In this document: positions 14,566 to 64,000 of the stretch, in pieces
How positions within the stretch are numbered: position 1 is the first letter of the stretch
Layout: each line of letters starts with the position of its first letter
Assembly (NCBI GenBank): GCA_001799635.1
Contig: MGTV01000050.1
Location: forward strand, 1 to 64,000
Origin: Elusimicrobia bacterium GWA2_62_23
Lineage (GTDB): Bacteria; Elusimicrobiota; Elusimicrobia; Elusimicrobiales; UBA9959
Direction of reading: 5' to 3'
Length of the DNA: 64,000 nt
Program-made: the position numbers and the translations under genes
Notes under the pieces: model-generated
The model's database searches: none
The model's input: only the letters and a program-made list of their open reading frames with translations
Told to the model about the DNA's origin: nothing

Positions 14566-14584
14566 AAATTTGTATACTTTGAAA

Positions 14585-16545: not shown

Positions 16546-16565
16546 TACGTCTATCCCGAGGTGAA

Positions 16566-19285: not shown

Positions 19286-19312
19286 TATTTAATACAATAG
19301 CAACGGATAAAA

Positions 19313-21238: not shown

Positions 21239-23009
21239 AACCCTCTGCGCGGTGATAGTTTTCTTCGCCGCCTTCCTCGGCTACGCCAATTCCGTCACCT
21301 CCACCTTTCACTGGGAGGACGAATATCTGGTGAGGGACAACGTGCATATCAGGCGGTTGTCCAATATCCCGGATTTTTTCCGGCCCGGCTACGTGAACGT
21401 GTACGAAGCCGGCGCCGGCAGCCGCTACCGGCCGCTGCGTACGGTAACCCTTGCCCTGGATTACGCCTTGTGGAAGGAGGACCCACGCGGCTACCACCTT
21501 ACCAACGTGCTCCTGAACGCCGCCGCGGCCGCGGCTTTCTGGTTTTTCTGCCTCTCCCTGACCGGCAGCGGGACCTTTTCGCTGCTGGCGGGCCTGCTTT
21601 TCGCCCTGCATCCGGCTCACGCGGAGTCCGTGGCCTGGGTCAAGAACCGCTCCGACATACTTTGCGCCCTTTTCTGTTTCGCTTCGGCCGGACTTTTCGT
21701 CCTGTACCGGCGGAATTCCAGGGTCCTTTTTCTGTGGCTTTCGGCCGCGGCCGCGGTGCCGGCTTTTATGGCCAAGGAAATGGCCCTGACCCTGCCGTTC
21801 ATGCTGGCCCTGGCGCTCGTTTACGGCAATCTGGAGTCGGGGCGGGACTGGGAGGACGGCTGGCCGGGCCTGCTGCCCGCTTTTAGCCTGCTGGCGGCCT
21901 ATTTCATTTTCAGGCAACTGGTGATGGCGGGGGGGGCTTTCGGCGGCTCGGCCTCCGGGCCCAGCCTTCCGCTCATGGCCGCGGCCGCCGGGGAATATCT
22001 TAAAACTCTGCTTTGGCCGGTCTTTCTTTCCATCGACCGCCCGCTGCCGGCGGCCGGTGCCGCCTGGCCGCAGTACGCTTTTGCCGCTGTTTTCCTGGCC
22101 GGCGCGCCGGCCCTCTGGTTCTCCGGGCGGCGGCGCGGCGCCCTGTGGCTGCTGTTGTTCTGGGTCCTGTACGTGCCCGTTTCCAACCTGGTCCCCATAG
22201 AAGGGAGGCCTTTCGCCGAGCAGCGCCTGTACCTGCCCTCGGCCGCTTTCTGCGCTTTCATAGCCTGGGGGCTGACAGAGCTGCCTCCCGCGGGCCGCCT
22301 GGCCCGGCTGGCGCCGGCCCTGGCCCTGCTGCTGGCCGGCCTTTGGGGCGTCCGCGGTTTTTACCGGAACCTGGACTGGCACAGCGAGTCCGGGCTGTGG
22401 CAGGAGACCGTTAGGGTTTCCCCTTCCGCCAGGGCCTACAATAACCTGGGCGTGACCCTGCTGCGGGAAAAACGCTACCAGGAGGCCATCGCCAGCGCGC
22501 AGGAATCCCTCAGGCTCGATCCCGCCTACGTAGACGCCTACAATACGCTGGGCGCCGGCTACTATGACCTCGGCCTTTATGACCGGAGCCTGGCCGCTTT
22601 CGAAAAAGCCGTCTATTTCTCCGACGGCCGCGCCTACAAGTCGCTCATGAACCTGGCGACGATCTATAGCCTCAAGGGCAGGGAGAAGGATGCGGTGGGG
22701 TTGTATGCCGCGGTGATCAGGACCGCTCCCTGGATGGACGCGGCCTACTACAATATGGGCATGGCGCTGAACCGGCTGGGGCGCAAGGAGGAGGCGTTGC
22801 GCGCCTTCGGAGAGGCGGTGGCCCTGAATCCGTACAATGCCAGGGCCTACCAGATGCTGGGAGGGCTTTTCGCGGAAAGAAAAGACTATAAGTCCGCCGA
22901 GCTGGCCTACCGGGACCTGTTGAAGGTGGAGCCCGCTAACCCTTTCGCGGCCAAGTTCCTGCTGCTTAATACAGGGCAGAGTATTGACAAGTCAACGGGT
23001 AGGCCTTGA
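21219..23009 (+). CDS. GT-C/TPR membrane protein, TMTC-like, paralogue 3
   Basis: 596-aa third paralogue. The loop motif reads FHWEDEYLVRDN, so the first acidic residue is Glu (E33/D34). SRYRPLRTVTLALDYALWK, LHPAHAESVAWVKNRSD and MAKEMALTLPFM follow. The C-terminal TPRs include YNNLGVTLLREKRYQEAIA, YNTLGAGYYDLGLYDRSLAA and YYNMGMALNRLGRKEEALRA. The last codons overlap regulatory DNA for the giant gene: a TTGACAAGTCAA palindrome lies at 22984-22995 and the -35 box of the next promoter includes the stop codon. Confidence 0.82.
   Translation: MKIAENKTLCAVIVFFAAFLGYANSVTSTFHWEDEYLVRDNVHIRRLSNIPDFFRPGYVNVYEAGAGSRYRPLRTVTLALDYALWKEDPRGYHLTNVLLNAAAAAAFWFFCLSLTGSGTFSLLAGLLFALHPAHAESVAWVKNRSDILCALFCFASAGLFVLYRRNSRVLFLWLSAAAAVPAFMAKEMALTLPFMLALALVYGNLESGRDWEDGWPGLLPAFSLLAAYFIFRQLVMAGGAFGGSASGPSLPLMAAAAGEYLKTLLWPVFLSIDRPLPAAGAAWPQYAFAAVFLAGAPALWFSGRRRGALWLLLFWVLYVPVSNLVPIEGRPFAEQRLYLPSAAFCAFIAWGLTELPPAGRLARLAPALALLLAGLWGVRGFYRNLDWHSESGLWQETVRVSPSARAYNNLGVTLLREKRYQEAIASAQESLRLDPAYVDAYNTLGAGYYDLGLYDRSLAAFEKAVYFSDGRAYKSLMNLATIYSLKGREKDAVGLYAAVIRTAPWMDAAYYNMGMALNRLGRKEEALRAFGEAVALNPYNARAYQMLGGLFAERKDYKSAELAYRDLLKVEPANPFAAKFLLLNTGQSIDKSTGRP
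22984..22995. promoter_or_regulatory. Palindromic operator-like site upstream of giant-gene promoter
   Basis: TTGACAAGTCAA sits 10 nt before the -35 box at 23006. The PorV-gene promoter has TTGACATGTCAA at the same 10-nt distance. Identical position at two riboswitch-controlled promoters suggests a binding site for a common regulator, although tandem -35-like hexamers are an alternative. Confidence 0.5.
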
Positions 23010-56400: not shown

Positions 56401-58843
56401 GTACGACCAGGAGAACCCGCTCAATACCCAGACCTATATCAACCTCTCGCAGACGCAGACCCTCAGCCCCCTGCCGCAGACCTACTTCGCGGTCTACGAC
56501 CTGGGCGAAATGGCCATCAAGGCCAACAAGCTGGGCATGATGATAAGGGACAAGTCCTGGATCGTGGTCAATACCCCGCACGACGTGGCCTCCACCCTTT
56601 ACGTGGGCGTCACCAAGGCCCTGCCCAAGGGCACTTATACGGACATCTACCCGTTCAGTTCCAGCCTGGTGCCCATCAAGGCCGTGAGCCTGAGGGTGGA
56701 GGGTGTGAACATAGCCCCCGGCTCGGCGGAGAAAGGTTCCAGGAACGTGCCGCTGATGACGTTCAACATGAGCACGCTTTCCGACTACGTGGTGCTGGGC
56801 CAGATGATCCTCCAGCAGACCGGCAGCATCAGCAGTTCGACCTTCAACTTCGGCGACGGCGACCTGTCTTCGGTCTCGCTCTGGAAGGACGACGGCGACG
56901 GCGCCTTCAGCCCGATAGGCGACGCCAGGCTGGGTACCGCGCTGCACTCCTCCACCATGCCCTTTGCGGACGGCATCACCGTCAGTATAACGGACGGCAA
57001 CCTGCCTTACCTCGTCATCTCCACCTGGACGATGACGGTGCACCTGTCCTGCGATATCAGTTCCACCACGGACCTCACCGGCGCCGACCCGATGGGCCAC
57101 CTGGCCGGCCTGACCCTGAGCGCCTTTACGGACCTGCGCGGCATGGGCGGTATGCCCATGGCCGCCGGCCAGTATTACGCCGACAAGTACCCGATGGAAT
57201 CCAACCAGGTGCTCATCTCCCCGGCCATCATCCCGCTGACGCCGGTCTATAAGGAGATCATGCTGGCCTCCAACGGCTATCCGGCCTACGCCCTTACCGA
57301 TTCCAGCGGCAACGTGGTGCTGGGCGCCGGCAATATTCCCATAGCCGACACCAGCCGGTGGATCTATAACTATCCCGGCATCTCCTGCGGCGCCAACGAA
57401 CCGCTGATAGACATCAACGGCGACGGCAGGCCGGACAACTTCGACTTCTACGGCTCCGGCAAGTGCAACCATGTCAGCCTCAATAATTCAGGCCTGCCTT
57501 CGTTCGACGTGGACAGCGACCACCTGCTGGACTTCGAGAGCAACCTGGACTATGTGCCGGACCGCATAGTCAACGACGGCACCGGTAAGCCGCTGTACTT
57601 CATAGGCGACAACGTGCAGAACGTTAAGATGCTGCTGGCCGTTTCCGAACTCGGCGCCGTGCCTTCCGGCTGGTCCGCCAAGACCACGGAACTCAACGCT
57701 AACTGGAACCCCGCCTCCGGAGCGGTGGTGCAGTATGAGCTCTCGCTGGGCGGCAGCTTCTCCGACCCGACCGGAATAAAGAACGCCTGGCAGCCTACGG
57801 GCGGCGGCACCACCCTTTCCGGCAGGCTGACCAACGTGGCGCTGTCGCCCGGCCACTTCACGCGCCTGACCAGCCGCATAGACGTCAACAGTTCCTCCTT
57901 CACGGTGGTTTCCGCCGAAGGTTTCGCCACTGAGGGCGTGGTCTATGTGGGCAATGAGATGATGGTGGTGACGCGGCTGGATAATATTACTTTCAAGATC
58001 AACCTGCGCGGCGTGCAGGGCTCGTTCCGCGGCCCGCATACGGCCTGGGGCGAAACGGTTTCCGACCGCGGCTACGTGCTCTCGGTGCGCGGCCAGATGG
58101 CTGACGGCACCTACGTGCCCAGCGAGAACGGCGTGCCGGTGATGATCTACCGCATAGACACCACTTACCCGACCACGCCCGGCTCGCCCGAGCCCCAGGT
58201 GGCCAAGGGCGTGGCCTCAGGCCAGGCCTATACCCTCAAGTGGACCGCCGCGGACGACCCCGAGTCCAACGTGATGTCCTATGAGATCCAGGAGCGCGAA
58301 GGCACCAACCCGGTCTGGAAGACCGTGGCGGCCATTCCCGGCCTGAAGACCGGCGGCGCCGTGAACAATATCTATACCATAGGCGACCCGGTGAACCCCG
58401 GAGAGCTGCCGCGGCCGCTCGGCAAGTACTACACCTACCGCATCCGCAGCTGGAACTTCGCCGGCATGCCCTCCGACTGGTCGCCGGTGTCCACCCCTGC
58501 CGGTACCGAGATAGGCACGGAACTCCTCAGCAAGGTGTCCAATTACCCGAATCCCGTGGACCTGCGCAAGGGCGGCGTGGAGGGGCGTACTGTCCTTAAC
58601 TATACCTTGAATGATAATGCCGAAGTGACCATTACCATCTACGACCTGCTGGGCTACGTGGTGAGGGAATTCACCTTCTCCAGCGGCGCGGACGGCGGCA
58701 AGATGGGCCCGAACTTTGTGATCTGGGACGGCCGCAACGGCCTGGGCGGGTTCGTGTCCAAGGGCGGCTACATAGTGCGCGTGAAGGCGGCCAGCCCCAA
58801 GGGCAGCAAAGTGATCATGCGCAAAGTGGGCGTGATCCACTAA
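23495..58843 (+). CDS. Giant multidomain surface protein (11,782 aa) with Ig-like arrays and FlgD/T9SS-like C-terminal domain
   Basis: A single uninterrupted 35.3-kb gene for an exported protein on the order of 1.2 MDa. Order: signal peptide (RATRLLRAAALPLLALAG ending LRAAD, about 1-36); two beta-sandwich-like modules (about 39-429); about 53 Ig-like domains (430-7280); about 16 domains of a second type (7280-9500); a block with Ca-loop motifs such as VWYDANNNGFLG (9500-11250); a linker with DINGDGRPD; an FN3-like domain (about 11550-11670); and a C-terminal domain starting NYPNPVDLRKGG and containing VITIYDLLGY-like and WDGRN motifs, typical of FlgD-Ig/T9SS sorting domains. ATG 23495 is used, with TTG 23480 as alternative; neither has an SD. 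A SprB/RemA-like adhesin or filament is the best guess. Codon use is uniform throughout. Confidence 0.93.
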   Translation: MAPKGQNIIIARATRLLRAAALPLLALAGVLLPVSELRAADYEWGVNYAMYELHGRHWGSTAARTTIAFRFTAQYDGVIDQISMAIGRSPTANQAMTMGIATALGATASAQTYLAYANVNQGGANSGWAYWQVQATSATPVEAGLDYYILMRPSAMTSNFTNRAGTIFGYSNASTVDGGGNLVYPSGVVDNNLQVYYSRSNIEPYTLISNAMPSFVLRYDSGAYYQGQPYAAFTASSNEGLLVSEGGIVTTTPNSLENILDQGNIYGTRGVGYYFTADANTRNVVSAKIFLQKVGTPADRLNLRVVKAASPYTVVVDTTVYAAAGDISTTWGWQPSAGKPFPGGSFTAGESYYVYFFSTGSANGNHYRLSLMDTKDYGNATVAGANNLTVNGTADYYVYAADVRNLGGFSRPYANTYGDIPIWLACDNDRPEVYVTQPVNNTSRKSMAAVEGTAVDNYFLRAGGVELTIRNITSGKVWTGSAWTDWGGSPIWVTAGPASDSKGAQISWTYAMTWAHNNRYEIYARAKDSVGNYTLGWSTTTFYYDEYQPAPAEVPDSTMTFPTEGMFVSGLETISGTALDNSPNGKISLVKWMLWRTGFYWDGSLWQAGAPPQDVDNLWLNSDDGNGSYLVDWHEYFINGQIPAPAQMTTGSTYYISARAQDSVVNSLNAADPNKEITRSTFTFYWDAVRPTSGITYPIDGGVAGTLPVFYGTYYDQHSGIGPTIGGAVKVYLFDKVNKLWYYNGDWRNTAPALAEMPDADIWTSSWTYTAPPLAGGNQYLLVVTAMDSAKNSSLVGNYQNTWTIGTSSNSFVCDNQNPSTYIGTPDTAFRNQLVSITGTAQDLPQASQIKQVEIEIVYPADTPAFAWTGSAWVASIGDFSTYTYVSGGYPSWSYTPPGINWTESREYRIRARARDNIGNLDPSFTLGVNERQFRYDVNFPTSAVSKLVENGVERATQTVNNLHDLTNIKGGVQDYPNPPDGSVGGVYVYIEKIDNIPSGTPYCWDGSGGIWRNDICPVRNSASIGAGWEYSVAGVPWSAGGGLWSNGGVFRIRTEARDTAAPGNAPPPAGNREQGGVYANLPYVDFTYDPRRPSSKLTNIPANGYANTLPVIQGTASDYDDSVNYVPRISSVKLHIRDMSSNKVFNKNTLDWDEDLLDDMFDADHQVDATFVGYSSGTWSYNITDAKWQHGNNYRIIPKTYDQANNYEIGLDTRTFTYDVYQPMPDEAPNSLIGFPADDAHFNTRATLAQVTGTAKDNPPIGKVSGLKIILKKIVGGTTSYFTGATWAAGDVPANASSWPNGTPVDGNYDSSAEPYTYNMPPIGDDDMWTPNIVYYLYTECRDWASNYEHVRATHTFVYEVQSPTITVTYPVTNGYVSAGGKVEGTAADLWPGRVSNVYVRIKRNSDSWYWDSSISNWTNTGAPEVWNDVNLYGALSPNGTWWQLNSANWESSYIYTVDVKGRDKAGNWVLSYSTATNVAADFTLPSSSVTYPNNGDDLTTDLTVVSGSASDLAPGQVDKVLVSYYKVTVPPGYWDRAAGNWNSATELFYEATTVDTVNKKWQATGASTPTWITTDLGVDYQIFAKALDKAGNQVVKPGSPFYDSALVQFRLRTPLPLSEVLTPDVTIPHWKPNPSQSIIGTAVFASTVQLRITDYGGDLTEGNADDLVYDGVTWQLASSDPNLYTGVQSFDGTNWQFTLPVSAWNGNRKYRVRSKAWLGIVPETPTGGREFVIDSTAPAVAINTPSQAYMRELGTLEGVASDLTPGALNNTYFRVKRQAAAEYWNWQASTFTALSGGYTDLAAYFDGGLYKYTTDYFTNSGAWEDNKSYTVQFFSADKAGNLGTASEQTFTLDRSSPVARVLVPFDANGSGIRSLVSVSGTAYDGHRNSGVQIAIRKFAPTQTWFDGAAFSQTAEPPQWIDVTDGVNGYLSPDATSWAYAPAGLDTAMAEDYRYLILVRAVDVALNTQQSYTVGQSSMVIKIDKSAPAALMAVPLDDSDGVSGRYQPGVIGKIANSTQLKGTAYDSPAVVHSTVATVSIRLGYLSGVTTYYWDGGAFVAISSETAWNNTSLSGSGPTWNWDYMTDIAWPAGDKEYLLEIKAMDDSRLSNDSGTGNWSAWPYSSRRFIVDATPPSVTITTPTVLALKAFTRGDGNVDALLAGHKWTEMRISTTGVDGNRYWDRTAGEWKTSAETWNITNKLGSTSWYCLADAGMLKDDVVYTLSARALDYANNYSTAYSTSVFTYDITPPVVAVGFPLNDVAYSQIKISTPLAGTSSQPGQNSAYTGVSTVAVQVTDLDGGPACFTGSGWGGCPQWLKTEGDPATWGYDRAGFSFVNDHRYQIEARATDFAGNDSAVSNRIFRYDVEKPTSAVTYPLPGLTTGFAYIAGTATDERYGARQWEAKLSSYTVKVAVKSLTTDVGWWDGSVFTAGNPVWYEAVNSTTVAPNQFRYDLPGAMIAKMNESASQDPARSYRIVTWSYDLALNREFGPQGSEPLEADIPAGTGRVVTFDSERPVTAITLPNVANHNTLVNITGTADDNVAIDSVRFTVFLPSQGRYYDPSLSPPWSDPGKTEDQAPWLQAQATLYTTSAAWTYAIQNSTWTSAFTYRVRARSLDVSGNYDNVYSTATFLFDNEAPVSTVTVPGAWQHLNALPIALAGTSYDPGASGVSQVRVYLSRAADGWYWNGGSWSVSPTVFLADPPLANWTMPISDNMFSGPDSQVYRVETNAFDAATNQETYAIKTSFVYDVTRPTAAIFYPYNNGYISATGKITGGSYDKPNGMVQDVNVRIKQLTGPNAGKYWSIIGSSWAVAAVSNNVVSYGSLSPSATWWQLNTAPWATGETYEMNAWAFDRAGNYQLVYATATTVKADFVNPISTITYPSHGTIIQAELNNISGNAEDYAPGVLDRVMLSYFKMDTARYWNFATHAWDSTEELFYDATIVGNNWTATGVSTPTWIAPLSGISYKVFAKAVDQAGNEVPKPGLTGPLSPYIEFTLKPPPPVSSITTPDPSVPHYKPAPAPTVIGTAVYATTVAVRVVDYGPDLTEGSGNDDLAWNGVAWLSTTAFTGFAGVDNYVNPNWQWTIPTDRWNVNRRYRVVSRARHEVNGTIESPGVGVEFIVDSTAPSAGVTMPDKSFMHSLTSLAGTLSDVAPGDVVSAYFRVKRQEASQYWNWQASTFTAAGAYTNLDGSIVWNDTLKTGTVGYTTSYFTAGLAFEKDRSYVVELYATDKAGNLGSATAFTFTIDISSPVARVTAPYDANKKGIRQINAVSGTALDNFTNSDVYLAMQQQGSPPLWFNGTDFLEPGASPVWISMKTNGTLSPNATSWAYAPANLDLRFVAGTNGMKYLLLTKALDVAGNMQDIFQTDISSVVINIDKLAPSSVFTFPLDDHDGFSGRYKSANVGKAATSTRLYGVASDSAYTQNNAGVIDGTIRLSYLSGATTFYWQPSAFTSAISSEAAWQPVSVSYVGPDWSWVYLNDITWAGDREYKIEVKAMDDARLADDSGAGNWEDPQTHGVNVNHIIVDDTPPTVTITTPTTTAVRSLPGFGGNANADVAGLDRVEVMISTGTGGSTRYWNGTGWQTTAWPAVNSTKLGPTSWYYTLSPAALKDDVVYTLVARAVDYAGNVSSVYSTYTVTYDIMGPLVSLGFPLNGATYSQILLSTPMAGTATNNQTAAYSGPSTVSVAVSDLVNGTCFDGVTFIGCTESVWLAAQGTVANWTYTDRDISFVSDHSYKFEARSADDAGNYSGIASVTTKFDLDIPTATVTSPMTEYVRTLPLILGTAQDERNGVRTYEAGLGTYTVKMAIRLVGGNWWNGADAFNNANPVWYETAVDTAAYGAGQPVVDWQYTVPANIQSVMAGLSGSAPYLRSYLLVPWAYDLAQNREFGPGGSDPANTDVPLAVGRVIKFDNLSPVSVTTAPANVTYQNSVLSLYGVATDTGVVSGLQVLIKARGTFNAMLKYPPYANTVDDWTDSGDKYLYWSTATYANGAWRLTLPSLDPVNNNKISVWTRAQDLAGNWEASPSQAQVDANLKADGSAAYYFTYDSLLPLTGITAPDRYALSVATGLITGTAFDAGTEPSQVNEVRLRIRRSGTVNNYWSFINNNWTTAAPTDTFGVSGTNNWTKVIDKASQEDGYEYYIYHYAKDNALNNNSGAYFSTFTFTVDLTTPTSKITFPANNSFIGSVPAITGTADDSVENIHGWAYPQSYEAGISTDTGVDLAIQRLTDNKWWDGTGFNGAARSWHLTLFTGASSGTWVYNLPGGAIADGTTYYAMTRARDLVYNIQTIYTTNYFTGDTTNPDSRVTSPTGSQSYISGVAGTAQDTLPGELRNTMMVKIALRKITAPQACYNNDLNAWENCPALAYPNDRIWFTTGTVNDPRGQPGTWTWDTSAISWANGHSYDIQSLAIDKAGNVRPYPGQNSPDLTFSFVSPAADTFINTPSNEWGNYKATDLLAIIGNGTNLRPVNSVQVRVKKLKEPVRWWEEATQSWLAIDTYTYVTATAGAWSMNVTGGVAFTVDNSTYIFTTTGFNSANEAEVPPTNRTVIVDNTTPLGAVLSPNKPYVNAMPVLSGTALDPGRLELPAAYQEGMNRVLVMVKDNTTGAYWNGLTFDVFMSSSNILAAGTLNWSSATAVTPAMKDGRSYSVYGKPEDKAGNRDDNELTAPAYTVIYDTTTPSSWITTPGAYAILRSLPSVTGTAADPSGVYSPNLKSDLDKVELQIYDETSVKWWHAGSSAFSVLSSSFNAVNGTANWDYTNAALAAALQSGRYYILQARAVDRATNNQNGFVANVSSLTFVWDITPPQTFLGQPVDGGSYRPSDLTGVNPIRGTATDAVLPYSTDHLSKVQMNLSYLSDNVTYYWNGVSAFSNAISSDAAWTDVAGTDTWRYPFDGANWVSDKDYTLWMRAFDTATPLGPNGGNEQNPWTIAHFVVDNTPPVSRISTPAAGSFIQGSLAEISGTSYGGRSGQVAFPNGLRLRISNVIAGDTWYWRGTTAFGWSSGTVIDLPVQYTASQSTITWTYPPATYDPPTILLNNQLYTLEIFGTDKAGNVETPSVITVRSDFDYPVITISTPMAASNAFYGPARPTGQLLGNSADSPAGILPPIKTQLSNISELGAVKPKWNGASWPVVTSTWLAVTNLSPWNYTPPAWPANKRFKAEFWAADYAGNQVPAGTYEREFVYDANKASSTIVQPSAAFHNLSQIGSFSGSASDWVNFASTEAMSGLAPDGLEIQIVDASGNTFNGVGFAGGSTWRKTVFSTVTQVTDGVFGINIVSAANWSYPRSPDTWPPAMVEGSTYTVRMRANDRSLNVEDYVERAFCYDNSAPTATITMPGNFAYVSMPVISGTLLEQFSYPDPAIGVQLVIQRVSDLNYWNGATWDTTWASASHWRNATTIGPNSWSLSDANLNTYFNSLKASNASLQFRLYLRARDAAGNQSSPGTLAPVNPDVTFTVDPVVPSSKVTYPSSGAYVNAPVTHIDGTATDTSLGVPSGLNTVKLRFSKLNSGGTRYYYNWPLNNWTTDSAEWIFTPVDGALTPWTRAVPATAYTGSGTDNGDGYRFEIQSEAKDTTQSVNGGPNTEVAYATSTFLMDLSTPTAVIQQPLHNSYFRSLSSLSGTSADPVAGGNLPSALLSMEYVLIDTDKKPNRYWNFATGAWSASYVSSVTAPAANWLNSALPVNSPPSAANSWAVTRSSATFLLKVKFTDNALNVSSFTVNYSTFTLDLILPDSAVTSPPVEDGFQMLVSSITGTAADFVADVSTVQIRIQQDTVQTDCVDTGSNGLYWNGTGWQASEKWFGVNSYTPATDEWTFDASNIVWKAQCFYVIKSSAVDNVNNGELTWGSRRFKFTPPPAATRITVPDNLRYYKASSQVSGTANADAKTLALEIRRMSDNYYWNFGTQVWQVALTSASGIVPAGGAWTYSANLPALVSGSSYTYRSIGKSYSDVDEFAPATNQVYFDTAKPDAFVQLPAAAQQYYNSLPRLGGTATDPPGTSPPAAGIYRVWAEVRDENGPSQGKYWDNATSTYTAVWNQAGNLGAYFIAASSWTYEVAYPTAAFANGAQYRVRAKSLDNTYSNSVLEGTESDFSAGNLFSFDITVPTAVVTAVYPGQSRSGVSVASGTISEALVTVNIGQQPGVQIQGVKLRIKDNKLVQYWTGSGWDGSPAVSTGVTVYQSSWSYIVMPNWADDGSYTMWAEATDKAGNVQVNFAGNGSSVTFTTDKSAPTLAVLSPAANTKISSVLSVSGTANDPNYETNSGIAGPNNVQVQVSYLFGGDTYYYDNAADYSSSTLNDTNSWWPASFWTPQGPSSGTWTYDPAGLTPSMVPDRVYRFRARAQDNAIPVPNPASLMTNVVANLNVVYDVTPPVSRITVPADLGKVRTLVNITGTALDNLAGISSIGQIAVSIAEKAPGSAHWNGLYPGTFTLTSETFQLLSAPSLAANYDGLNWTFTAPNLRDGYTYAIKVRAADDVSPANIETDISSVTFTYDTNPPEAAITYPVSRPDPRGNLNSLVTVSGTAYEQFGIKSASISVQEADTSFYYDTQTSSFTSAAQKWITAAIAGSVPNYTWTAPAPPLADNKDYNLYVTADDAAGNTLPPPGATVIRYDITKPLSRPTLPVNNGYIKYLASVSGTALDVNSNQSGVYGAQAKIQRNTDGLYWNGSIWGVTEVWLGAVTGSPWVNPWTKATQLPPSDNFSGLQDGVAYTVMTRAYDVAANTQTVILAGNSFTFDISSPTAFITLPLNGTRHNSLPQVSGTAADAFNVNFPQVRIYDVPLNKFWMDGTGTCGGTPLPGWVGPACGSFPEVWNVAIDSSSAAGDFTWHYNSATAGMWPDRDSELRVEAKVADQAGNFTFASSTFSYDATPPISTITYPSANGLLFSSMTAISGTSLDLTSAISDVRVRIWYLSGPSTYYWQPTTPHWSASDTGWWSIGGAPGPKATMNPWSYTNSDFSNPGTVNFAWKEGTHDGQNGKVFYVVTKAVDSTANEQIVLTTRSFQFDNVPPLSAPVQPGVDTAYRNLPALSGTSVDAVTTVASAKVSVLSQDEPGGAKYFDGSSGFVNVSETWLSVSNLYPSSWTYSSGMLVFADRRHYIVKSSATDSIGNVQSAVGQSRFLFDTTQPQSVVVSPVNASVYNDNKVVLGNSSDPGFTSGIDGTGSGVYPSLGWHAGKVEALVFRDTAPFLASNGPIIYGAWDDSGYFWNGSTWTAAAAGPSWQAGQFTDALGNWQYSGLVCPDPNPTGSPCWVRGDPYVSWVRVTDNANNTESIIDQGPKFYIAAPAQSFLLTIAADPVTAGSDVNITVEAKDGAGGTGNTAAAYQGTVNFYVDGVPGGPEVMDNDAVMDDYRGLPQQYTFLPGDFGQKTFQVRLRKAGGRVLRSEDNDNPAIFGTRNVTVNPTNPDRVQVIADYDPAGQLPMPGRMDSGVEGSTGTPRTKPAGSSIPFLVQVTDRYWNLVLSSAANVYIADTDANNDSISSDGYTAFVGSTTIFRTFVSADASGWGVSATGQGLYTNPRNPSTNVPVIAQAADRLLAVLPGEEQVQGKFAVQPYGKKDLPGDAVAGSTLSVVVYGVDPYYNRDITASFPVSAYVHTDKYDVTPAAQNLVAGATTFNFVPVVAATHTIKAESSSLPPATSVYFTPNPVNVWWNRPVKLHLIPAGMSLDPGKPPYSSNPSGGGKAGSPSTLQAGNTTQMSVYLTDDYYNVVRGTTPFLAVSSNAPVIQIDFLNDPNIQLRGMHPSPYQKSLVAGTTNFFVIPVTRNQSTGLSVQVTDTGLSYPGTVFSTDTAGGIMVNPAPAATLLLLVPNETAAEGVPGGKTGTAGPLTAGTTYTIQIRAVDSYGNLTTDGRMVKVMSNDVYAVHPPAQPMAGGVAIINGFVPSAATNNMVIDGLDDDTVTPKLSTSTDAGVVVDPGTASRLIVLLPTQYLVPGKVVYPYGVAGTISTQTAGVYFNAQVYAADNRYNRVYGINKSNIRGSTDDPNVGGGSGVLGFFDMTDGSATIVNVNLRSAGFRTVTATDLSGTNPNLGATPSGTFLLNPNNPTKLRAMVPSQTRVPGSTTNGRTGGVDAQQAGFPFTVTVDITDAFWNLTPGASQEIRLVCNDPFSVVTPSTQVIVGSATFTVTPKRAGETYVRAELVNAIPPWGPSLLVDTATVVNVAPGIPRRMLLLMPGESFDQGSDSGKVGNTGEQKAGTDFGVRVGVVDDFFNLVPGRPADVRVNAPSDPYAPAVSTAAVNPAVGYTDLMYVEMHKAATHYLTATDYGSSGLSDDPQSSTFTVRPADPVGLQLLVPGETAMPGSGNYPLGGKTSVISTQTAGEQFMVTVNLVDPYMNRFPDLSVGPTIYIITAEDLYDTPVSSSALNYGTLQVQMNLVTKKAASSIKVYGVLADDNYICSGNFGGVCLTDDAATKTSLKVFASTASRLEVILPGQGLAEGKCNISPPCRDPLISWPGRTGPPPAYTIGTGALFATVVLTDRFYNKATELITSAQDTNPIAVMPTVGVSVPGDFKTTPPGPQTLSNGSAVFSIDARTSFSTYTVVAATTAASAADYVTGVSTLAVNPGPPTHMLYILPSTTVVAGFPFSATLVVKDIYENICSTGNNVYLGTAAFAVQDQVNPNQDPSLSAPQVAFARSDLGVKDLPNWFTFRKAGVNTLGAYDTLNPIVNVTPLVDISVTPGPPNIYRVVPNVETEVTAGSLLLPGRQTLTAQLSDAFDNNISSAGVPAYVEISEVYGSTGTLQYEKLSAWYDMGVSTIVYTDPTGQIGISTQVAYRVSSKSGDWARVWIGTTSIVGPSAYATYVAAKQNVSGLLTTTGGVPSKLLYVSSQPEASAGIQEVAGSGALFTVERRDDFDNLTKQGQTDVYLGLPAAQVSVHTALGRYMGTFGTFGDYGFRTPLNDQFIPAASILPNQTQVSFRYHDRTASYSGLSPAQNTGEGGRPGYWQLEARSGSMQAAIHQLRVNPIDIVKVSFGNPQRSLVAGKIIDSFGVQQHFEAELRDMFDNPSLATAAVQVQLSTYTRQPSLAYDAFSFSLSTQVSGAFPPVFLTTVTYLTIPLDSYAATFYYLDTTASSVYGSTIPLRPVIQVEAPERPAWAASTQAVHVVPDYTKRINISQNAGQTLMAGSTSQVFMMSIEDIFGNPTPVASGQEDSIGAGVSFTLDSDSAGQVMFSAPDVSSWTVKPGYAKMALGESSTSFYLTDTLLSSPAHELTVKTVNPKGWEDAVSSYVVVAAQPHHVLFHNAPRRLIAGSTIQYADWVNQVTTPTVVSVVLKDRFDNTTTTSSVATVRFSAIRNTTYGGIDPNEAVLASNPAWKLLKTNPVDLSIFPGQSYANIYVWDTVVGTAVITADASISADGLVLPQIVQDLYVTPSTAAYFTLHHNYSLSNPLRVQTPGNVTLRARDKFGNVAAGDAVNGLYYQGKIKMATSSKGSADLRDWLNNTTDYVFVPSDQGERQLLLQDTFVETLKINVTDYHNTTVYGYTADGARGMPVQSSPDVILSGLVITPTDMAPEDPLPVAKVSIGINKYAIYQGDGVIPDIPAPVPMLRLTMQTSPAGAPPAYMNSVQVRSSGTLSWSDIVEVGMYADNPLYGQIGAFDGETTLGGAPIDILMSTGTYDSGLQAWGFNDLAAKVSTAALVSNTPRNFFFTVRMSTIAATPRSFALVIDNPSFVVLNSTFVGVAYNNFPIQTATAPVRNQPATVQLQGSDIAAWWQPTVGTTTLTLGKYAYVEQGQGRVGFLELKAWTENFIGTIKSFKIIKTGTGSGADLKSVRLFLDSAGGDPELGDGIFAPSIDKEVTDPLNPPAYDILDPDTFVLPLINPGLDGAVSVSTRTYYVVYEFGPDSIPNMSHGARIENSGLNLIDGVVGAFQPIVSSTIPLLATADIVYLTDVNKSQPNDFAKPSFVTQGDKDKAVVRLTMQINGSQGSAVWSGVKLDRWITAPENGDTPVWNKVTDVKKINIWNDFTGDGLLETTGTVKDMEVLLIGLKDRTFPYDALKAPLVSTDTNIRVYDIQKFFPSDSPFPMAPGRLIMNDGQADPSLKEVIYYSTVDVLGNAFAGLTRGAEGTVAVDWSTGTIVSGQAILPIIGEGGALDGQVIYNVAKDYFITYDIDPLANVSNFAYLGLAMRTTDYFKITSPKYMSSANIGVTPPGKSVSLIGKVREYADAVIVKASDTLTGPSLQQQALNQPVLVFTMETNVADAMWRWLMVYATGTVILDGTALNDISAVKVWYDANNNGFLGTGDVMIGSGTFGNTMYGPLTSRVDFAAEQRIFTQLEALNSNLSQRYFLTYDIRDSAMPNDALGNPRYLGAYLKQDSLPQNSPLVDDPPKNAISLPNAFSAANSNLTFVSVVREIISSPSTVTVLTEPLYSPDHSGSIPSVRLAQDVTSPGPMDAAWLVTSTAGIPASGYAVVDNEIVHYDNTALGALMVVTRGAFNSPVLNHSSGSVIGGELYQGDLNYPLMQMDLTTPGYGVRWQGIKLSRKQPSSLNGYDEDVSVIRVWKDNGNGTFDRDAATGLNTSDTIIGTGHFGRDGDPVGKATIAVRDPALVNQSYVVIRSTPTRIFVSVDIDKASNFSNVLLNPQNDVLGVEVPFETNFTFGPENSGHVAQFLSPTVSQINAILPTMNVITMTPEDISPVTVTQNDKNVGLLAMRLVVDKTSAKIEAMKLNRRGSSNDSDIDLIKVWKDSNDNCLLDSVDTSSDSTGNYPNLASYGNESYSSSTVNIVLKKPIVVTTNSACAFISYDMSQFAIIGSTAALSISSAGYFTIGIPNQIVFTTWPINTMPMVVKEIPSNVILGANDVANDLVLAGGVNQAQLDAPMIRFNLATEAGNARWRAMKVQRTGASNDPNAPFGKNTDVKFITIYQDSNQNDQLDINDVNISEAETISVVPFVSTDTLPFNLVLNSTEGFPAEGRIYIEEAELASYSGGGIDPATGKPYLTVFSRGEKLGDFFTPAVDHKARVRVRKVDLYDQENPLNTQTYINLSQTQTLSPLPQTYFAVYDLGEMAIKANKLGMMIRDKSWIVVNTPHDVASTLYVGVTKALPKGTYTDIYPFSSSLVPIKAVSLRVEGVNIAPGSAEKGSRNVPLMTFNMSTLSDYVVLGQMILQQTGSISSSTFNFGDGDLSSVSLWKDDGDGAFSPIGDARLGTALHSSTMPFADGITVSITDGNLPYLVISTWTMTVHLSCDISSTTDLTGADPMGHLAGLTLSAFTDLRGMGGMPMAAGQYYADKYPMESNQVLISPAIIPLTPVYKEIMLASNGYPAYALTDSSGNVVLGAGNIPIADTSRWIYNYPGISCGANEPLIDINGDGRPDNFDFYGSGKCNHVSLNNSGLPSFDVDSDHLLDFESNLDYVPDRIVNDGTGKPLYFIGDNVQNVKMLLAVSELGAVPSGWSAKTTELNANWNPASGAVVQYELSLGGSFSDPTGIKNAWQPTGGGTTLSGRLTNVALSPGHFTRLTSRIDVNSSSFTVVSAEGFATEGVVYVGNEMMVVTRLDNITFKINLRGVQGSFRGPHTAWGETVSDRGYVLSVRGQMADGTYVPSENGVPVMIYRIDTTYPTTPGSPEPQVAKGVASGQAYTLKWTAADDPESNVMSYEIQEREGTNPVWKTVAAIPGLKTGGAVNNIYTIGDPVNPGELPRPLGKYYTYRIRSWNFAGMPSDWSPVSTPAGTEIGTELLSKVSNYPNPVDLRKGGVEGRTVLNYTLNDNAEVTITIYDLLGYVVREFTFSSGADGGKMGPNFVIWDGRNGLGGFVSKGGYIVRVKAASPKGSKVIMRKVGVIH
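24781..45330 (+). repeat. Array of about 53 Ig-like domains within the giant protein
   Basis: Each unit of roughly 110-140 residues follows the pattern D-x-x-x-P-x-S-x-I-T-x-P, then I-S-G-T-A-x-D, then Y-W-N-G-x-x-W, then W-T-Y, then Y-x-V-x-x-R-A-x-D-x-A-G-N, ending F-x-Y-D. Conserved Trp/Tyr and the closing Asp point to beta-sandwich domains strung head to tail, like bacterial Big-type domains. I counted 53 by eye from the opening motif, so the number may be off by a few. Confidence 0.85.
27584..44503 (+). repeat. Four-copy, 11-domain (about 4.2-kb) super-repeat in the Ig array
   Basis: Domain types recur every 11 units. Approximate copies: 27584-31747, 31748-36001, 36002-40279 and 40280-44503. 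Landmarks: PHWKPN, PHYKPA, NYKATD and YYKASS domains begin near 28342, 32495, 36796 and 41049; domains with GYLSGVTTYYW, SYLSGATTFYW, SYLSDNVTYYW and SYLFGGDTYYY follow three units later; the preceding unit ends in SSMVIKID, SSVVINID, SSLTFVWD or SSVTFTTD. Copies 1 and 2 match clearly throughout; copies 3 and 4 are diverged and rest on these landmarks. Confidence 0.65.
45331..51990 (+). repeat. Second repeat family in the giant protein (about 16 domains)
   Basis: Units of about 115-190 residues share a start such as LLLLVPNETAAEG or LQLLVPGETAMPG, a Gly-rich GKTG segment, Q-x-A-G-x-x-F, then V-x-x-x-D-x-Y-x-N, for example VTVDITDAFWNLTPG. The later units from about 49190 are shorter and keep mainly A-G-x-x-x and the D-x-F-D-N motif. 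They resemble invasin/Big_1-like stalk domains; no specific family can be fixed by eye. Confidence 0.7.
51990..57230 (+). repeat. Third module series in the giant protein, with Ca-binding-type loops
   Basis: About seven long units each carry an Asp/Asn/Gly loop after a short strand: VRLFLDSAGGDPELGDG, INIWNDFTGDGLLE, VKVWYDANNNGFLGTGD, IRVWKDNGNGTFD, IKVWKDSNDNCLLD, ITIYQDSNQNDQLDIND and VSLWKDDGDGAFSPIGD. The DxDxDG-like spacing suggests calcium binding. Between them lie three segments with a TRG or SRG motif in which a strand, a short loop and an H-x-x-G end resemble phage tail-fibre-type modules; a fourth follows near 57870. Confidence 0.7.
58526..58840 (+). other. FlgD-Ig/T9SS-like C-terminal domain of the giant protein
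   Basis: The last 105 residues start at SNYPNPVDLRKGG and contain LNYTLNDNAEVTITIYDLLG, VVREF, FVIWDGRNGLGGFVSKGGY and IVRVKAAS, ending in a Lys-rich strand. This order (PNP, hydrophobic strand, YDLxG, WDG, sGxY) defines FlgD-type Ig domains and the related C-terminal sorting domains recognised by type IX secretion. The PorV-like gene follows directly. The secretion route is inferred. Confidence 0.75.
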
Positions 58844-59020: not shown

Positions 59021-59048
59021 TTGACAAACCCTAATCATCTGCTATAAT
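59021..59048 (+). promoter_or_regulatory. Consensus promoter of the PorV-like gene
   Basis: -35 TTGACA (59021-59026), 16-bp spacer, -10 TATAAT (59043-59048), preceded by TGC. ATCTGCTATAATAT is identical to the giant-gene promoter at 23006. The start is predicted near 59055. Confidence 0.85.
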
Positions 59049-59173: not shown

Positions 59174-60790
59174 ATGAAACGCATTCTTGTTAATGCTTTT
59201 GCCCCCTTGGCTATTTGGGCTATTACGAAGCGTATAATACGCTTCAGCCCTGCCATGGGGCTTTTTATTGCGTTTTCGGCCGTGAACGCCCTGGCCCAGG
59301 GCGGCGGCCAGCCCGGCGCCTTCATGAGCTACGGCGCCGGCGCCCGCGGCCTGGGCATGGGCGGCGCTTTCTTCGCGGTGGCGGACGACGCCTCCGCCTC
59401 CTACTGGAACCCCGCGGCCCTGACCCTGCTGGAGCGCAAGGAATTCACCGCCATGCAGGCCACCCTGTTCGAGCAGACCACGCTGAACTTCTTCACCTAC
59501 GCGCACCCCACCACCACCCGCGGCACCTGGGCCGTCAGCATGACCCAGCTGCAGTCCACCGGTTTCGAGAAGATAGAGATCACCGCCAACCCCGGCGGCG
59601 ACGAGATCATAGACGTCAGGACCCTCGGCACCTTTGACAGCACCGAGCGCGCCCTCGCCTTCTCCTGGGGCCGCGACGTGTCCGACAAGCTGGCCTTCGG
59701 CGTGATGGCCAAGAACATCTCCCGCACCCTGGACACCTCCGCGGACTCCTTCAACGCCATCGACATCGCGATGCTCAACAAGTTCTCCAAGAGCTACCGC
59801 GCCGCGGTGGGCATCCAGAACGTCTTCTCCATGGCCTCGGGCGACACCGACGACAAGCTGCCCCTGACCCTCAAGTTCGGCCAGGCCCTCTCGCTCTTCA
59901 AGGGCGCCTTGGTGTTCGGTTTCGACATCGCCAAGCCCCAGAATTCCGGCACCCAGTGGCGCTTCGGCGGCGAGTACTGGCTGATGTACTGGAGCGCCCT
60001 GCGCTTCGGTGTGCAGGGCTCGCCCGCCATCCAGGAGGCCGATTTCGGCCTCGGCATCAAGTACAAGAACCTGGGCTTCGACATAGCCCAGGGCGTACAC
60101 GCCCTCGGCACCACCACCCGCTTTTCCGTGACCCTGCGCATGGGCCACTCCAACAAGGCCAAGCACGAGCGCGAAGTGCGCGAGCTGGTCCGCCAGGCCC
60201 TGCAGTACTTCAAGTCCGGCTACTTCAGCCGCGCCATGGAGAAGTTCCGCGCGGCCATGGACGCCGACCCCGGCAACGCCGAGATCCGCCGCATGGTGAC
60301 CCGCCTGCAGGGCGCCGTGGACTACGTACCCGACGCCACCGGCGGCGAGGAAGTGCCCACCCTGACCCGCCGCGGCATCATCGCCTACGTGGACGGCAAG
60401 GACATGCGCGCCTCCGTGAACGTGCTGCGCCACGCCTTCAACAAGGACCCGAAGAACGACCGCCTGCTCAGCCTCCTGAACATGGTGGAGAAAGAGGCCG
60501 GCGTGAGCGAGCTCACCCGCAAACCCGAGGGCCCCGAGATCTTCACCTACATAGACCAGCGCACCTACGATGCCCGCCAGTCCATCTACGACGGCAAGTA
60601 CGACCTGGCCATGAAGCGCGCGCAGGACATCCTGGACCTGGAGCCCAACAACGAGACCGCCCTGGAGATCATGGGCAGCGCCTTCTACCTGATGGACCAG
60701 AAAGAGAAGGCCAAGGTGATCTGGGAGCGCGTCATAGAGATCAACCCGAACAATACCATGGTGAAGAACTTCCTCAAGCAGGTCCGCTAA
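59174..60790 (+). CDS. PorV/PorQ-like (UPF0164) outer-membrane barrel with C-terminal TPRs
   Basis: 538-aa exported protein. The N-terminus has basic residues and a hydrophobic stretch ending MGLFIAFSAVNALAQ, giving a signal-peptide cut after NALA. The barrel domain opens with GARGLGMGGAFFAVADDASASYWNPAAL, a hallmark of the PorV/PorQ/UPF0164 group (part quoted: GMGGAFFAVADD), and contains many amphipathic strands up to about residue 325. A TPR-like helical part follows (EVRELVRQALQYFKSGYF, later YDLAMKRAQDILDLEPNN). In Bacteroidetes PorV carries T9SS cargo to the cell surface, which fits the sorting-type C-terminus of the giant protein upstream. ATG 59174 abuts the riboswitch and lacks an SD; ATG 59255 is an alternative but would give a signal peptide without basic residues. 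Confidence 0.85.
   Translation: MKRILVNAFAPLAIWAITKRIIRFSPAMGLFIAFSAVNALAQGGGQPGAFMSYGAGARGLGMGGAFFAVADDASASYWNPAALTLLERKEFTAMQATLFEQTTLNFFTYAHPTTTRGTWAVSMTQLQSTGFEKIEITANPGGDEIIDVRTLGTFDSTERALAFSWGRDVSDKLAFGVMAKNISRTLDTSADSFNAIDIAMLNKFSKSYRAAVGIQNVFSMASGDTDDKLPLTLKFGQALSLFKGALVFGFDIAKPQNSGTQWRFGGEYWLMYWSALRFGVQGSPAIQEADFGLGIKYKNLGFDIAQGVHALGTTTRFSVTLRMGHSNKAKHEREVRELVRQALQYFKSGYFSRAMEKFRAAMDADPGNAEIRRMVTRLQGAVDYVPDATGGEEVPTLTRRGIIAYVDGKDMRASVNVLRHAFNKDPKNDRLLSLLNMVEKEAGVSELTRKPEGPEIFTYIDQRTYDARQSIYDGKYDLAMKRAQDILDLEPNNETALEIMGSAFYLMDQKEKAKVIWERVIEINPNNTMVKNFLKQVR
59227..59266 (+). terminator. Paired hairpins after riboswitch 2 (possible expression platform)
   Basis: A perfect palindromic hairpin, GAAGCGTA, TAA, TACGCTTC (59227-59245), is followed at once by AGCCC, a 7-nt loop and GGGCT (59246-59262) with a T-run to 59266. 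They lie within the 5' coding region of the PorV-like gene, and the second covers the alternative ATG 59255. This could be an intragenic riboswitch terminator or a translation block. Confidence 0.4.
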
Positions 60791-61003: not shown

Positions 61004-62950
61004 ATGAAGACGCTACTGGCAGGCCTGCTGCTCCTGGGGAGCTTCGGGGCGCCGCGGATATACGCCGCGGACGCTCCGGTCAATCCATTGATGGAGACTT
61101 CCCTCATGGAGAAGCAGGATTCCCTGCGCCGCGAGACCGAGACCAAGGTCAAGAAGGAGATCCTCGACCCGATCCTCGGGGCCGACAAGTCCTTCGTGTT
61201 CGCGGACGTGGAGCTGGAGGTCATCTCCAAGAAGGCCGAGCAGAACAAGGAAGGCATCGGCATCATCCAGAAATACAAGGAGAAGGGCTCCGGCGCCGGC
61301 GGCGGCGCGGACACCGATTTCATCCTGCCCGGCATCCCCAAGCCCAAGAGCGTGCTGGGCGACGACAACAAGCGCCCCGAGGCGGCCCAGGGCCAGCAGG
61401 CCCAGCAGGCCAAGGGCGTGCAGGAGATCCGCTACGGCCTCGAGACCGAGATCACCCGCTTTCAGATCACCGTCATCCACGACGACCTGCTCTCCAAGGA
61501 GTCGCTGAAGATAGCCAGGGACCGCGTGGACGACTTCCTGCTGCCCTATAAGATCCGCAAGAAGGACGCCCCCACGGTGGTGTTTAAGCCCACCAAGTTC
61601 AAGGCCGCCAACCCCCTGGACGACCTGAAGCGCCCCTCCGTCTACCTGCCGTTGCTTTACGCCCTGCTTTTCCTTATACTTCTATTGTTCCTGTTCGGCC
61701 CGCTCTGGGGCTTCTTCCGCAAATATATCAAGGCGCTGCTGGCCAAGCCAGGCGCCGAGGTCAACATAGACCAGAAGATGGAGGAGGGCGGCGGAGGCGG
61801 CGGTGAGGAGGAGGGAAAACAGGAGACCGAAGGCCACCAGAGCATAGACATGAATTTCCTGCAGAAGGAAGCGGAGCCGAAGGAAGACGAGGACGAGAGT
61901 ATGAAGAAATTTGAACCTTTTACGTACCTGAACGAGGAAAACCTCAAACGGCTCATCTACCTGTTCCTGCTGCGCAAAGAGGACCCGTGGGTGATAGCCG
62001 TGGTGCTGAGCTACATGAAGCCCGACCTCTCCAGGCAGGCCCTCTCCATGCTGCCCGTGGAGATGCAGAGCCGCGTGGCGCTGGAGGCCCTGACCGTGCG
62101 CCAGGCCACCCGCGAGCAGATAGACGCCATAGACAAGGATATCAAGGAGAACGTGGATTTCGTGATGGGCGGCATAGAGCGCCTGTCCAAGATGCTCGAG
62201 GACTCCGACCCGACCACCCGCAAGAACATCATAGAGTACCTCAAGACCCAGAAGCCCGACATCTACGCCAAGGTCAAGCGCATAGTGCTGATGTTCGAGG
62301 ATATAGTGAACTTCCCGGACCGCGACATGCAGACCATCATCCGCTCGCTGTCCAACGAGGACATAGCGCGCGCCGTGGCCAAGGCGGACCCGGGCATAGT
62401 CAACAAGTTCTTCTCCAACATGTCGCAGGGCGCCGTCAACGCCATCAAGGAGATCATGGAGTACTCCGGCGAGATCACCGTGGCCCTGCAGGACGAGGCC
62501 CAGACCAAGATCCTGGACGCCGTGAAGACCCTGGAGTCGGAAGGCAAGATCAACGTGCGCCAGGGCAATACCCAGGAAGTCTATATCATAGACGGCGCGG
62601 AGATGTCCTCCGGGGACGAGCGCAAGCGCCGCTTCGAGAGCATGTCCGCCCCGAAGGAAGAGGCGCCCGCGGGCCCCACTCCCGAGCAGGCCGAGCAGGC
62701 CGCCCAGTACCTGGCCGCCGGCGTGGACATGTACAACCAGGGCAAGCTGCCCGAGGCCCTGCAGTACCTGGAATACGCCTCTTCGCAGAACCCCGGCGAC
62801 GCTTCCGCCTGGCAGTACCTGGGCACGGTCTATTATTCGCTGCAGCGGGTGGACGAGGCCGTGGCGGCCTACGAGAAGTACGCGAACCTCTCCGGCGACC
62901 CGGCCGCGGCCGAATGGCTGACCGGCTTCAAGCAGCAGGTGGGGCGGTAG
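61004..62950 (+). CDS. FliF-like/FliG-like fusion protein with C-terminal TPRs (non-flagellar context)
   Basis: 648-aa protein. A signal peptide (MKTLLAGLLLLGSFGAPRIYA) leads into a periplasmic region like the C-terminal half of FliF: VKKEILDPILGADKSFVFAD, later YGLETEITRFQITVIHDD and VVFKPTKFKA. One membrane segment follows (about 212-237), then an acidic Gly/Glu linker. Residues about 306-525 are a FliG-like domain: EDPWVIAVVLSYMKP in place of the EHPQ motif, VLMFEDIVNFPDRDMQ matching FliG's FxFEDI helix, and FFSNMSQGAVNAIKE. TPRs end the protein (about 565-648). In flagella FliF forms the MS ring and FliG the rotor switch; here both are joined and no other flagellar gene is visible. The N-terminal half of FliF is absent. 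A ring or motor part for surface motility or secretion is a reasonable inference. Confidence 0.82.
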   Translation: MKTLLAGLLLLGSFGAPRIYAADAPVNPLMETSLMEKQDSLRRETETKVKKEILDPILGADKSFVFADVELEVISKKAEQNKEGIGIIQKYKEKGSGAGGGADTDFILPGIPKPKSVLGDDNKRPEAAQGQQAQQAKGVQEIRYGLETEITRFQITVIHDDLLSKESLKIARDRVDDFLLPYKIRKKDAPTVVFKPTKFKAANPLDDLKRPSVYLPLLYALLFLILLLFLFGPLWGFFRKYIKALLAKPGAEVNIDQKMEEGGGGGGEEEGKQETEGHQSIDMNFLQKEAEPKEDEDESMKKFEPFTYLNEENLKRLIYLFLLRKEDPWVIAVVLSYMKPDLSRQALSMLPVEMQSRVALEALTVRQATREQIDAIDKDIKENVDFVMGGIERLSKMLEDSDPTTRKNIIEYLKTQKPDIYAKVKRIVLMFEDIVNFPDRDMQTIIRSLSNEDIARAVAKADPGIVNKFFSNMSQGAVNAIKEIMEYSGEITVALQDEAQTKILDAVKTLESEGKINVRQGNTQEVYIIDGAEMSSGDERKRRFESMSAPKEEAPAGPTPEQAEQAAQYLAAGVDMYNQGKLPEALQYLEYASSQNPGDASAWQYLGTVYYSLQRVDEAVAAYEKYANLSGDPAAAEWLTGFKQQVGR

Positions 62951-63125: not shown

Positions 63126-64000
63126 ATGGCAGACGAAAAGAAGATAAACAAACCTGGCATGCCCCCGCTTCCCCCGGGCATGTTCAAGCCCAACCTCCCG
63201 CCGATGGGGGGAAAACCTTCTTTGCCGCCCGCCGCTCCCGCTTTCGGCGGTATGCCCTCGCCCGGCATGCCGCAGGCGCCTTTCGCGCCCCAGTTCTCCC
63301 AGCCCCAGCAGCCGGCGGCCCCCGCCAGGGACGCGGCGGCCGAAGAGGCCGCGCGGATGCAGGAGGAGAAGGACAAGCTGGAGAAGAAGATCAACGACAT
63401 GGAGAAGCTGCTCTCCCAGGAAAAGGAGAAGGCGCTGCTCGCCACGCTGAAGAACCAGCAGGACGAGGCGCTCTCCTCCCGGGTGGAGTCCTCCCTTAAG
63501 GACATACAGGAGAAGATGCGCCGCGACCGCCGCGACCACGAGGTCGAGGAGGAGCGCCTCGGCCTGAAGTCCAAGATCAAGGAACTCGAGACCCGCCTGG
63601 CCCAGGAGCGCGAGACCTGGATGCAGACGCTCAAGAACCAGATGTCCGAGCGCGAGATCCAGGGTAAGGACGTCGAAAGCCATTTTATCTACCGCCTGCA
63701 GGAGATGGAGCGCCGCTGGCTGGACGAAAAGGCCCAGTGGCAGAAGGAGATAGCCTCCCGCGAGGCCGCCATAGGCCAGCTCAAGTACGCCGACGTGAAG
63801 CTGCGCGAGACCGAGGACGAGTTCCGCAAGGTCTCCATGGAGAAATCCATGCTGGAGCGCGATATCTCCAAGATGAAGGACGAGGTGGCTCGCGCCGAGC
63901 GCGAGAAGGCCTCCATAGAGTCCTACATAAAGATCATCCCCGAGAAGGAGCGTGAACTGGCCGAACTCAAGAGCGAGAACATCCAGCTGCGCTCGCGCGA
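63126..64000 (+). CDS. Pro-rich N-terminus plus long coiled coil, C-terminus outside window
   Basis: The frame opens at ATG 63126 and runs without a stop to the window end, giving at least 291 residues. Residues 1-80 are Pro/Met/Gly/Phe-rich, for example MPPLPPGMFKPNLPP and GGMPSPGMPQAPFAP, a flexible tail of the kind that binds adaptor domains. From about residue 83 the protein is a continuous charged heptad-rich coiled coil (EEAARMQEEKDKLEKKIND, later RLQEMERRWLDEKAQWQKE). No signal peptide or membrane segment, so it is cytoplasmic. It follows the FliF/FliG-like gene and may be its cytoplasmic scaffold or stator-like partner. Function unknown. Confidence 0.85.
   Translation, partial: MADEKKINKPGMPPLPPGMFKPNLPPMGGKPSLPPAAPAFGGMPSPGMPQAPFAPQFSQPQQPAAPARDAAAEEAARMQEEKDKLEKKINDMEKLLSQEKEKALLATLKNQQDEALSSRVESSLKDIQEKMRRDRRDHEVEEERLGLKSKIKELETRLAQERETWMQTLKNQMSEREIQGKDVESHFIYRLQEMERRWLDEKAQWQKEIASREAAIGQLKYADVKLRETEDEFRKVSMEKSMLERDISKMKDEVARAEREKASIESYIKIIPEKERELAELKSENIQLRSR

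Follow-up and report, generated by a model that had tools for sequence, protein, structure and literature searches.

The window, the whole 64,000-nucleotide stretch of DNA that was analysed, encodes a protein in which a FliF-type periplasmic domain, a membrane helix, FliG domains and TPRs form one chain, and which lies in a string of genes together with flagellar-type stator genes, a PorV-family outer-membrane carrier and a giant surface protein. The fused protein belongs to a machine other than the flagellum. A flagellar motor has apparently been put to a different use, since a conserved set of genes in a little-studied, mostly flagellum-less phylum, the Elusimicrobiota, places a fusion of ring and rotor beside motor genes, a carrier and a giant protein. 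The reading that we prefer, and hold with moderate confidence, is that these genes encode a non-flagellar ion-driven rotary motor in which MotAB turns a FliF-FliG ring and powers the export and/or surface movement of giant adhesins. The features of the gene string are as follows.

23480-58843, + strand: giant surface protein, 11,787 aa, many Ig-like modules
58481-58840, + strand: C-terminal sorting domain of the giant protein, T9SS type A / FlgD_ig kind, ending KVGVIH
59021-59048, + strand: perfect sigma-70-type promoter (TTGACA, 16 nt, TATAAT, TG before the second hexamer), a pattern match only
59174-60790, + strand: PorV/PorQ-family outer-membrane beta-barrel with a C-terminal TPR domain (NCBIfam NF033709)
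61004-62950, + strand: FliF(RBM3)-TM-FliG(M,C)-TPR fusion, 648 aa, ATG start, type D of five paralogous types
63126-65384 (63126-64000 in the window), + strand: coiled-coil protein, 752 aa
65471-65695, beyond the window, + strand: FlbD (Pfam 1.1e-24)
65715-66506, beyond the window, + strand: MotA (MotA_ExbB 3.2e-28)
66530-67303, beyond the window, + strand: MotB (MotB_plug and OmpA)
67300-68070, beyond the window, + strand: lipoprotein

The fused protein was examined domain by domain using Pfam, PDB and Foldseek searches and its orthologues, all of which bear out the architecture proposed in the initial annotation.

61004-61075, + strand: N-terminal hydrophobic segment, putative signal peptide, ~residues 1-24, from reading of the sequence; present in orthologues with a full N-terminus
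61091-61597, + strand: FliF RBM3-like periplasmic domain, ~residues 30-198 (family profile, Pfam, Foldseek); helix 28-58, strand 63-77, insert, strand 144-160, helix 165-179, strand 191-197
61634-61702, + strand: one transmembrane helix, ~residues 211-233
61967-62155, + strand: FliG middle domain, residues 322-384 (Pfam)
62237-62554, + strand: FliG C-terminal, stator-facing domain, residues 412-517 (Pfam, model)
62714-62911, + strand: cytoplasmic TPR repeats, residues 571-636 (Pfam)

Pfam matches FliG_C (E 7.6e-25, 87.7 bits against a cut-off of 23.3) and FliG_M (E 1.4e-10, 41.7 bits, cut-off 25) in the window copy, both domains exceed the curated cut-offs in 13 of 13 type D proteins, and the top PDB matches are Thermotoga FliG structures covering residues 304-526 (3ajc, 4.9e-31; 1lkv, 5.3e-31). 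Pfam gives no FliF-domain match in the window copy alone; YscJ_FliF_C is matched by 15 of 27 family members (best 3.6e-11), and a profile of the fusion family compared with the PDB returns FliF (6scn, 9.9e-8; 9yh6, 5.8e-7), with SpoIIIAG also among its matches (5wc3, 2.2e-4). Using a model of residues 1-246, each of the top 18 Foldseek matches is to a FliF structure, in many cases to RBM3/S-ring (best E 1.1e-5, probability 1.00); with a model of the whole protein, FliG structures rank first, and 8ucs, a MotAB-bound FliG domain, is matched at TM 0.92. Confidence in the two models is moderate (pLDDT 67 and 65). FliG and FliF, the relatives first proposed, are both top hits, and the N-terminus does look like the signal peptide that had been suggested. 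The membrane helix at ~211-233 parts the two halves of the protein, so that the FliF side would be periplasmic and the FliG side cytoplasmic, as in the flagellar motor.

Two flagellar domains are weak or missing. The FliG_N match in the window copy is weak, falls below the cut-off and overlaps FliG_M, and FliG_N is seen in five of 13 type D proteins, at E-values of up to 0.001. The N-terminal domains of FliF, RBM1/RBM2 (YscJ_FliF, PF01514), are matched in none of 31 same-genus genomes, and the positive controls were matched. The contact between FliF and FliG is here replaced by a covalent link, which would make FliG_N, the binder of the FliF tail, superfluous.

The initial annotation had also described the fusion as having no flagellar neighbours, which is an artefact, because the edge of the window cuts the gene string short. 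The flbD, motA, motB and lipoprotein genes start 2.5-4.4 kb past the fusion on the same contig and strand, and the stators thought to be missing are accordingly members of that same string. The intergenic gaps in it are short, the promoter pattern at 59021-59048 sits upstream of the PorV-like gene, and a single transcript starting there is plausible. Outside the genus, the neighbourhood was read by six-frame ORFs and profile searches at 23 loci, which span several classes and a GC content of 0.38-0.70. It is conserved: a PorV-family gene lies beside the fusion at 22 of the 23 and motA-motB lies downstream at 19, and at eight a protein with a C-terminal signal is encoded upstream. The linkage of the parts and its conservation are thus observations. 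Elsewhere in the window, three genes in a row just upstream of the giant gene (17633-23009) encode multi-pass membrane proteins that carry TPRs at the C-terminus and are possibly glycosyltransferases acting on the giant protein; a TadE-like protein at 3005-3586 (Pfam 4.5e-4, slightly under the cut-off) hints at a Tad-type pilus in this genome.

The source genome, an Elusimicrobiota MAG, has four FliF-FliG fusions and six MotA_ExbB genes. Four of the six are MotA-sized and paired one to one with the fusions, an arrangement whose probability by chance in one genome is ~2e-6, and two are TolQ/ExbB-sized. Of the 45 FliG-like matches in 13 genomes, 38 lie no more than 8.5 kb from a MotA_ExbB match, and several of the remaining seven fall on short contigs or contig ends. 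Five cluster types are seen: D, to which the window locus belongs, and A, B, C and E. Types A and B contain a coiled-coil protein, histidine kinases and receivers, the HisKA and HATPase domains having been checked for two of the kinases; the kinases and short CheY-type receiver-like proteins adjoin the motor genes (L026:4958-8566; L027:8077-9387 and 13696-16619) and could control motor speed or direction. Types C and E have two MotB genes each, and two MotB-like genes per cluster are seen at L028:8376-9694 and L035:8370-9720, which recalls the Myxococcus gliding motor with its two MotB-like partners.

Each of the outer-membrane and surface components was compared with those of the type IX secretion system (T9SS). 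The PorV-like protein scores 110.2 bits against NF033709 (cut-off 90), does not reach the PorV equivalog cut-off, and in a family profile search of the PDB matches the PorV of the SprA-PorV complex (6h3i_F, 1.2e-21); a PorV-family protein alone does not prove a T9SS. The giant protein, to our knowledge among the largest of bacterial proteins, is encoded by a single 35-kb ORF that has no DNA-level tandem repeat despite its many similar Ig-like modules. Its end lies near the TIGR04183 threshold (25.0 bits with the last 120 aa, 21.7 with 314 aa, cut-off 23) and matches FlgD_ig at 7.7e-6. There are ~16 open frames with a C-terminal signal in the source genome, most of them far from the motor clusters; TIGR04183 matches 16 of 16 C-terminal domains, and the C-terminal part of the PorU model is likewise matched by all 16. 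Those sorting domains that are near the motor (58481-58840 and the A6 members) mostly end in K-x-G-V/I-x-H. Within cluster B, a PorP/SprF-like barrel adjoins a protein with a type B signal (TIGR04131, 36 bits, cut-off 35); SprB and SprF of Flavobacterium are such a pair of type B signal protein and PorP/SprF barrel.

A SprA-like protein of ~1,800 aa is present in all 31 genus genomes, matching TIGR04189 at 1e-43 (149 bits in three stretches, under the cut-off of 200); PDB searches with phmmer and then with its own family profile gave no SprA match. GldM was matched in none of the 31 genomes and in none of the control genomes either, and PorU (C25) gave 0 of 31 in a search that likewise had no positive control. 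A clostripain-family (C11) peptidase is encoded beside a type C fusion (L028:12211-13458), and because clan CD includes C11 as well as C25, the family of the T9SS sortase, it might stand in for PorU. The earlier suggestion of a repurposed rotor for surface motility or secretion has gained a PorV-family carrier, T9SS-type signals and a SprA-like translocon; its rotation and output we infer.

These same components raise the question of whether the MotAB-FliF/FliG motor powers export alone, as a type IX-like system with another motor, no movement being involved and the giant protein being one large substrate. The SprA-like protein in every genus genome, the C-terminal-signal frames that are mostly distant from the motor clusters, and the carrier within the operon all fit this reading. 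We nonetheless regard it as rather unlikely, as there are several paralogous motors per genome, many of them beside their own carrier and/or large surface protein, which makes them look like dedicated adhesin drives, and the SprA-like gene lies away from the fusion clusters in a different gene neighbourhood.

The residues at which stator and rotor meet were compared with those of E. coli. MotB D32 is invariant (11 of 11), as are MotA P173 and P222, MotB carries a peptidoglycan-binding OmpA domain, and the best-scoring models for these MotA proteins are those of flagellar MotA/PomA/MotP. All 20 type D MotA proteins have K at the position of MotA R90, and all 14 type D fusions have E at that of FliG D288. 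In 13 of these 14, G takes the place of FliG R281, and the positions of K264, D289 and R297 show no conservation, so that four of the five torque-helix charges (K264, R281, D288, D289, R297) are not conserved and the D288 position stays acidic. With the K/E contact kept and R281 lost, the motor could plausibly still be driven through the usual contact, in altered form. At the position of MotA T209, all 20 type D stators (L024:3715-4506 and 19 relatives) have A and the flagellar MotA of two Elusimicrobiota keeps T; ion handling along the type D pathway may therefore differ.

The lack of conservation of these four charges, together with the SpoIIIAG match, could be taken to mean that the fusion is a static ring or channel scaffold, as is the FliF-like SpoIIIAG, with MotAB acting as a Tol/Exb-like puller and nothing rotating against FliG. 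This is quite improbable given that FliG M and C keep their stator-facing fold across classes (cf. the 8ucs match), that the K90/E288 pair is fully conserved, and that the MotA proteins score highest against flagellar models.

Genome-wide statements on flagella rest on family searches. FlhA (PF00771) and FliM/FliN (PF01052) are each matched in all four flagellated controls and in none of the 31 same-genus genomes, and the source genome has no flagellar locus into which the fusion would fit. Among 295 genomes of the phylum the fusion profile matches 122, in 60 of 90 genera, and FlhA is found in three. In one genome, G237, FliF and FliG are encoded as separate proteins in a flagellar locus (L154), and a different contig carries a giant protein, PorV-like protein, fusion, MotA and MotB together (L147). 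As the flagellum of G237 has its own FliF and FliG, the fusion is not the flagellar rotor, and the initial annotation's natural fusion of an MS-ring domain and a switch component, outside the flagellum and tied to a giant surface protein, is upheld. The two loci of G237 also offer a natural comparison of which stator serves which rotor. Canonical FliG proteins, including those from flagellated Elusimicrobiota, form their own clade (support 99/99), in a tree in which some rows are long-branched. In a sister family of the same order, the listed genomes of 1.3-1.7 Mb have no fusion match, and G161 (2.2 Mb) has one; this distribution fits a role in free-living surface life, as a correlation only.

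The whole architecture is retained in orthologues at 59-84% identity (ten aligned), frames are intact across classes at 39-46% identity, and dN/dS against close orthologues is 0.11-0.25, a sign of purifying selection on the fused protein. Chance similarity was considered and rejected, given E-values of 5e-31 to solved FliG structures, the fold match and purifying selection, as was an assembly artefact or frame fusion, the same architecture being shared by the ten aligned orthologues and by 13 proteins of type D that come from several classes.

The order flbD-motA-motB is familiar from flagellar genes, and the rarity of FlhA in the phylum means that flagella may often have been lost, both of which would suit a functionless, decaying remnant of a lost flagellum. 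We give that reading next to no credence, as it is refuted by constraint and coexistence: the dN/dS values and the intact frames rule out decay, the module is duplicated to several types per genome, the new fusion (TPR) and the new neighbour (PorV) are conserved, and the module occurs alongside a full flagellum in G237. A variant flagellum, whose absent parts are too diverged for detection in MAGs that are incomplete and among flagellar proteins that can diverge, is virtually inconceivable, as FlhA and FliM/N are well conserved and were found in every flagellated control and in none of the genus genomes, and as the canonical FliG of flagellated Elusimicrobiota is a separate clade.

We return to the non-flagellar rotary motor. 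The fused chains would assemble an inner-membrane ring through the FliF domain, like the flagellar MS ring, with the FliG part hanging into the cytoplasm below it. MotA5B2 units, held to peptidoglycan via MotB, would pass ions and turn the ring at the place where MotA usually touches FliG. Through the ring's periplasmic collar, the torque would cross the periplasm and reach the PorV-like carriers, perhaps via their TPR tails and the lipoprotein. The SprA-like translocon would export the giant adhesin, which the PorV-like carrier would then hold, and the motor would power the release and/or lateral movement of the adhesin so held. Such a motor would fill in Elusimicrobiota the role that GldLM and the GldK/N hub have in Bacteroidota gliding and type IX secretion.

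A variety of relationships with known systems are observed. The module shares with the flagellar motor FliF RBM3, FliG M and C, a flagellar-type MotA with conserved prolines, MotB with D32 and an OmpA-like domain, and an FlbD neighbour, but it is without FliF RBM1/RBM2, FliM/FliN and FlhA in the genus, it joins FliF and FliG in a single chain that also bears TPRs, and it adjoins genes for a PorV-family protein and a giant surface protein. In Bacteroidota, motors rotate an outer-membrane hub, driving export and the gliding adhesins on carrier barrels (PMC12635249; PMC8986121). Shared with that T9SS/gliding system (GldLM, GldK/N, SprA, PorV, SprB/SprF) are a PorV-family carrier, type A and B signals, a giant adhesin, an ion-driven inner-membrane motor, the PorP/SprF-like barrel that cluster B has next to its type B protein, and a SprA-like translocon; here, however, the motor is MotAB with the FliF-FliG fusion, the carriers have TPR domains, and GldM and PorU were not found in searches that had no positive control. 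The Myxococcus AglRQS-Glt machine likewise reuses MotAB-like stators outside the flagellum, and is described without a FliF or FliG rotor (PMC9389320). A laboratory FliF-FliG fusion in Salmonella, a deletion-fusion mutant cited in that paper, still makes a turning motor from a single chain; such mutants keep the full FliF domains and work in a flagellum, whereas the Elusimicrobiota fusion is natural, short and flagellum-free. Rotor proteins without filaments have been reported in 11% of non-motile species, their use being left open (PMC12199754).

All of the parts belong to known families, and the assembled machine matches no system known to us or found in the literature searched. As far as we know the module is new as a system, and it is not a flagellum; we infer its function, and withhold the T9SS label since the GldM and PorU searches had no positive control. 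In that literature, which took in no bioRxiv preprints and few subscription journals, no paper was found that links the Elusimicrobiota to gliding, to type IX secretion or to a FliG/MotA machine of this kind, so that a prior description is possible. On balance, we favour the proposal that these modules form a separate class of ion-driven rotary machine across the Elusimicrobiota. Such a machine would have a flagellar-type stator and a one-chain FliF-FliG rotor, would lack an export gate, a rod, a hook and a filament, and would act through the outer membrane on giant adhesins and their PorV-family carriers; it would be present as several specialised copies per cell, driving gliding or powering type IX-like export.

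In a phylum nearly without FlhA, selection has maintained a flagellar rotor and stator that have been duplicated and connected to type IX-like carriers for surface proteins, and the gene module provides a concrete, testable case. If it rotates, it would be a further rotary drive beside the flagellar motor and the T9SS/gliding motor, would show that the flagellar motor is separable from its export apparatus and filament, and would give a large uncultured phylum a probable way of moving on surfaces or exporting proteins.
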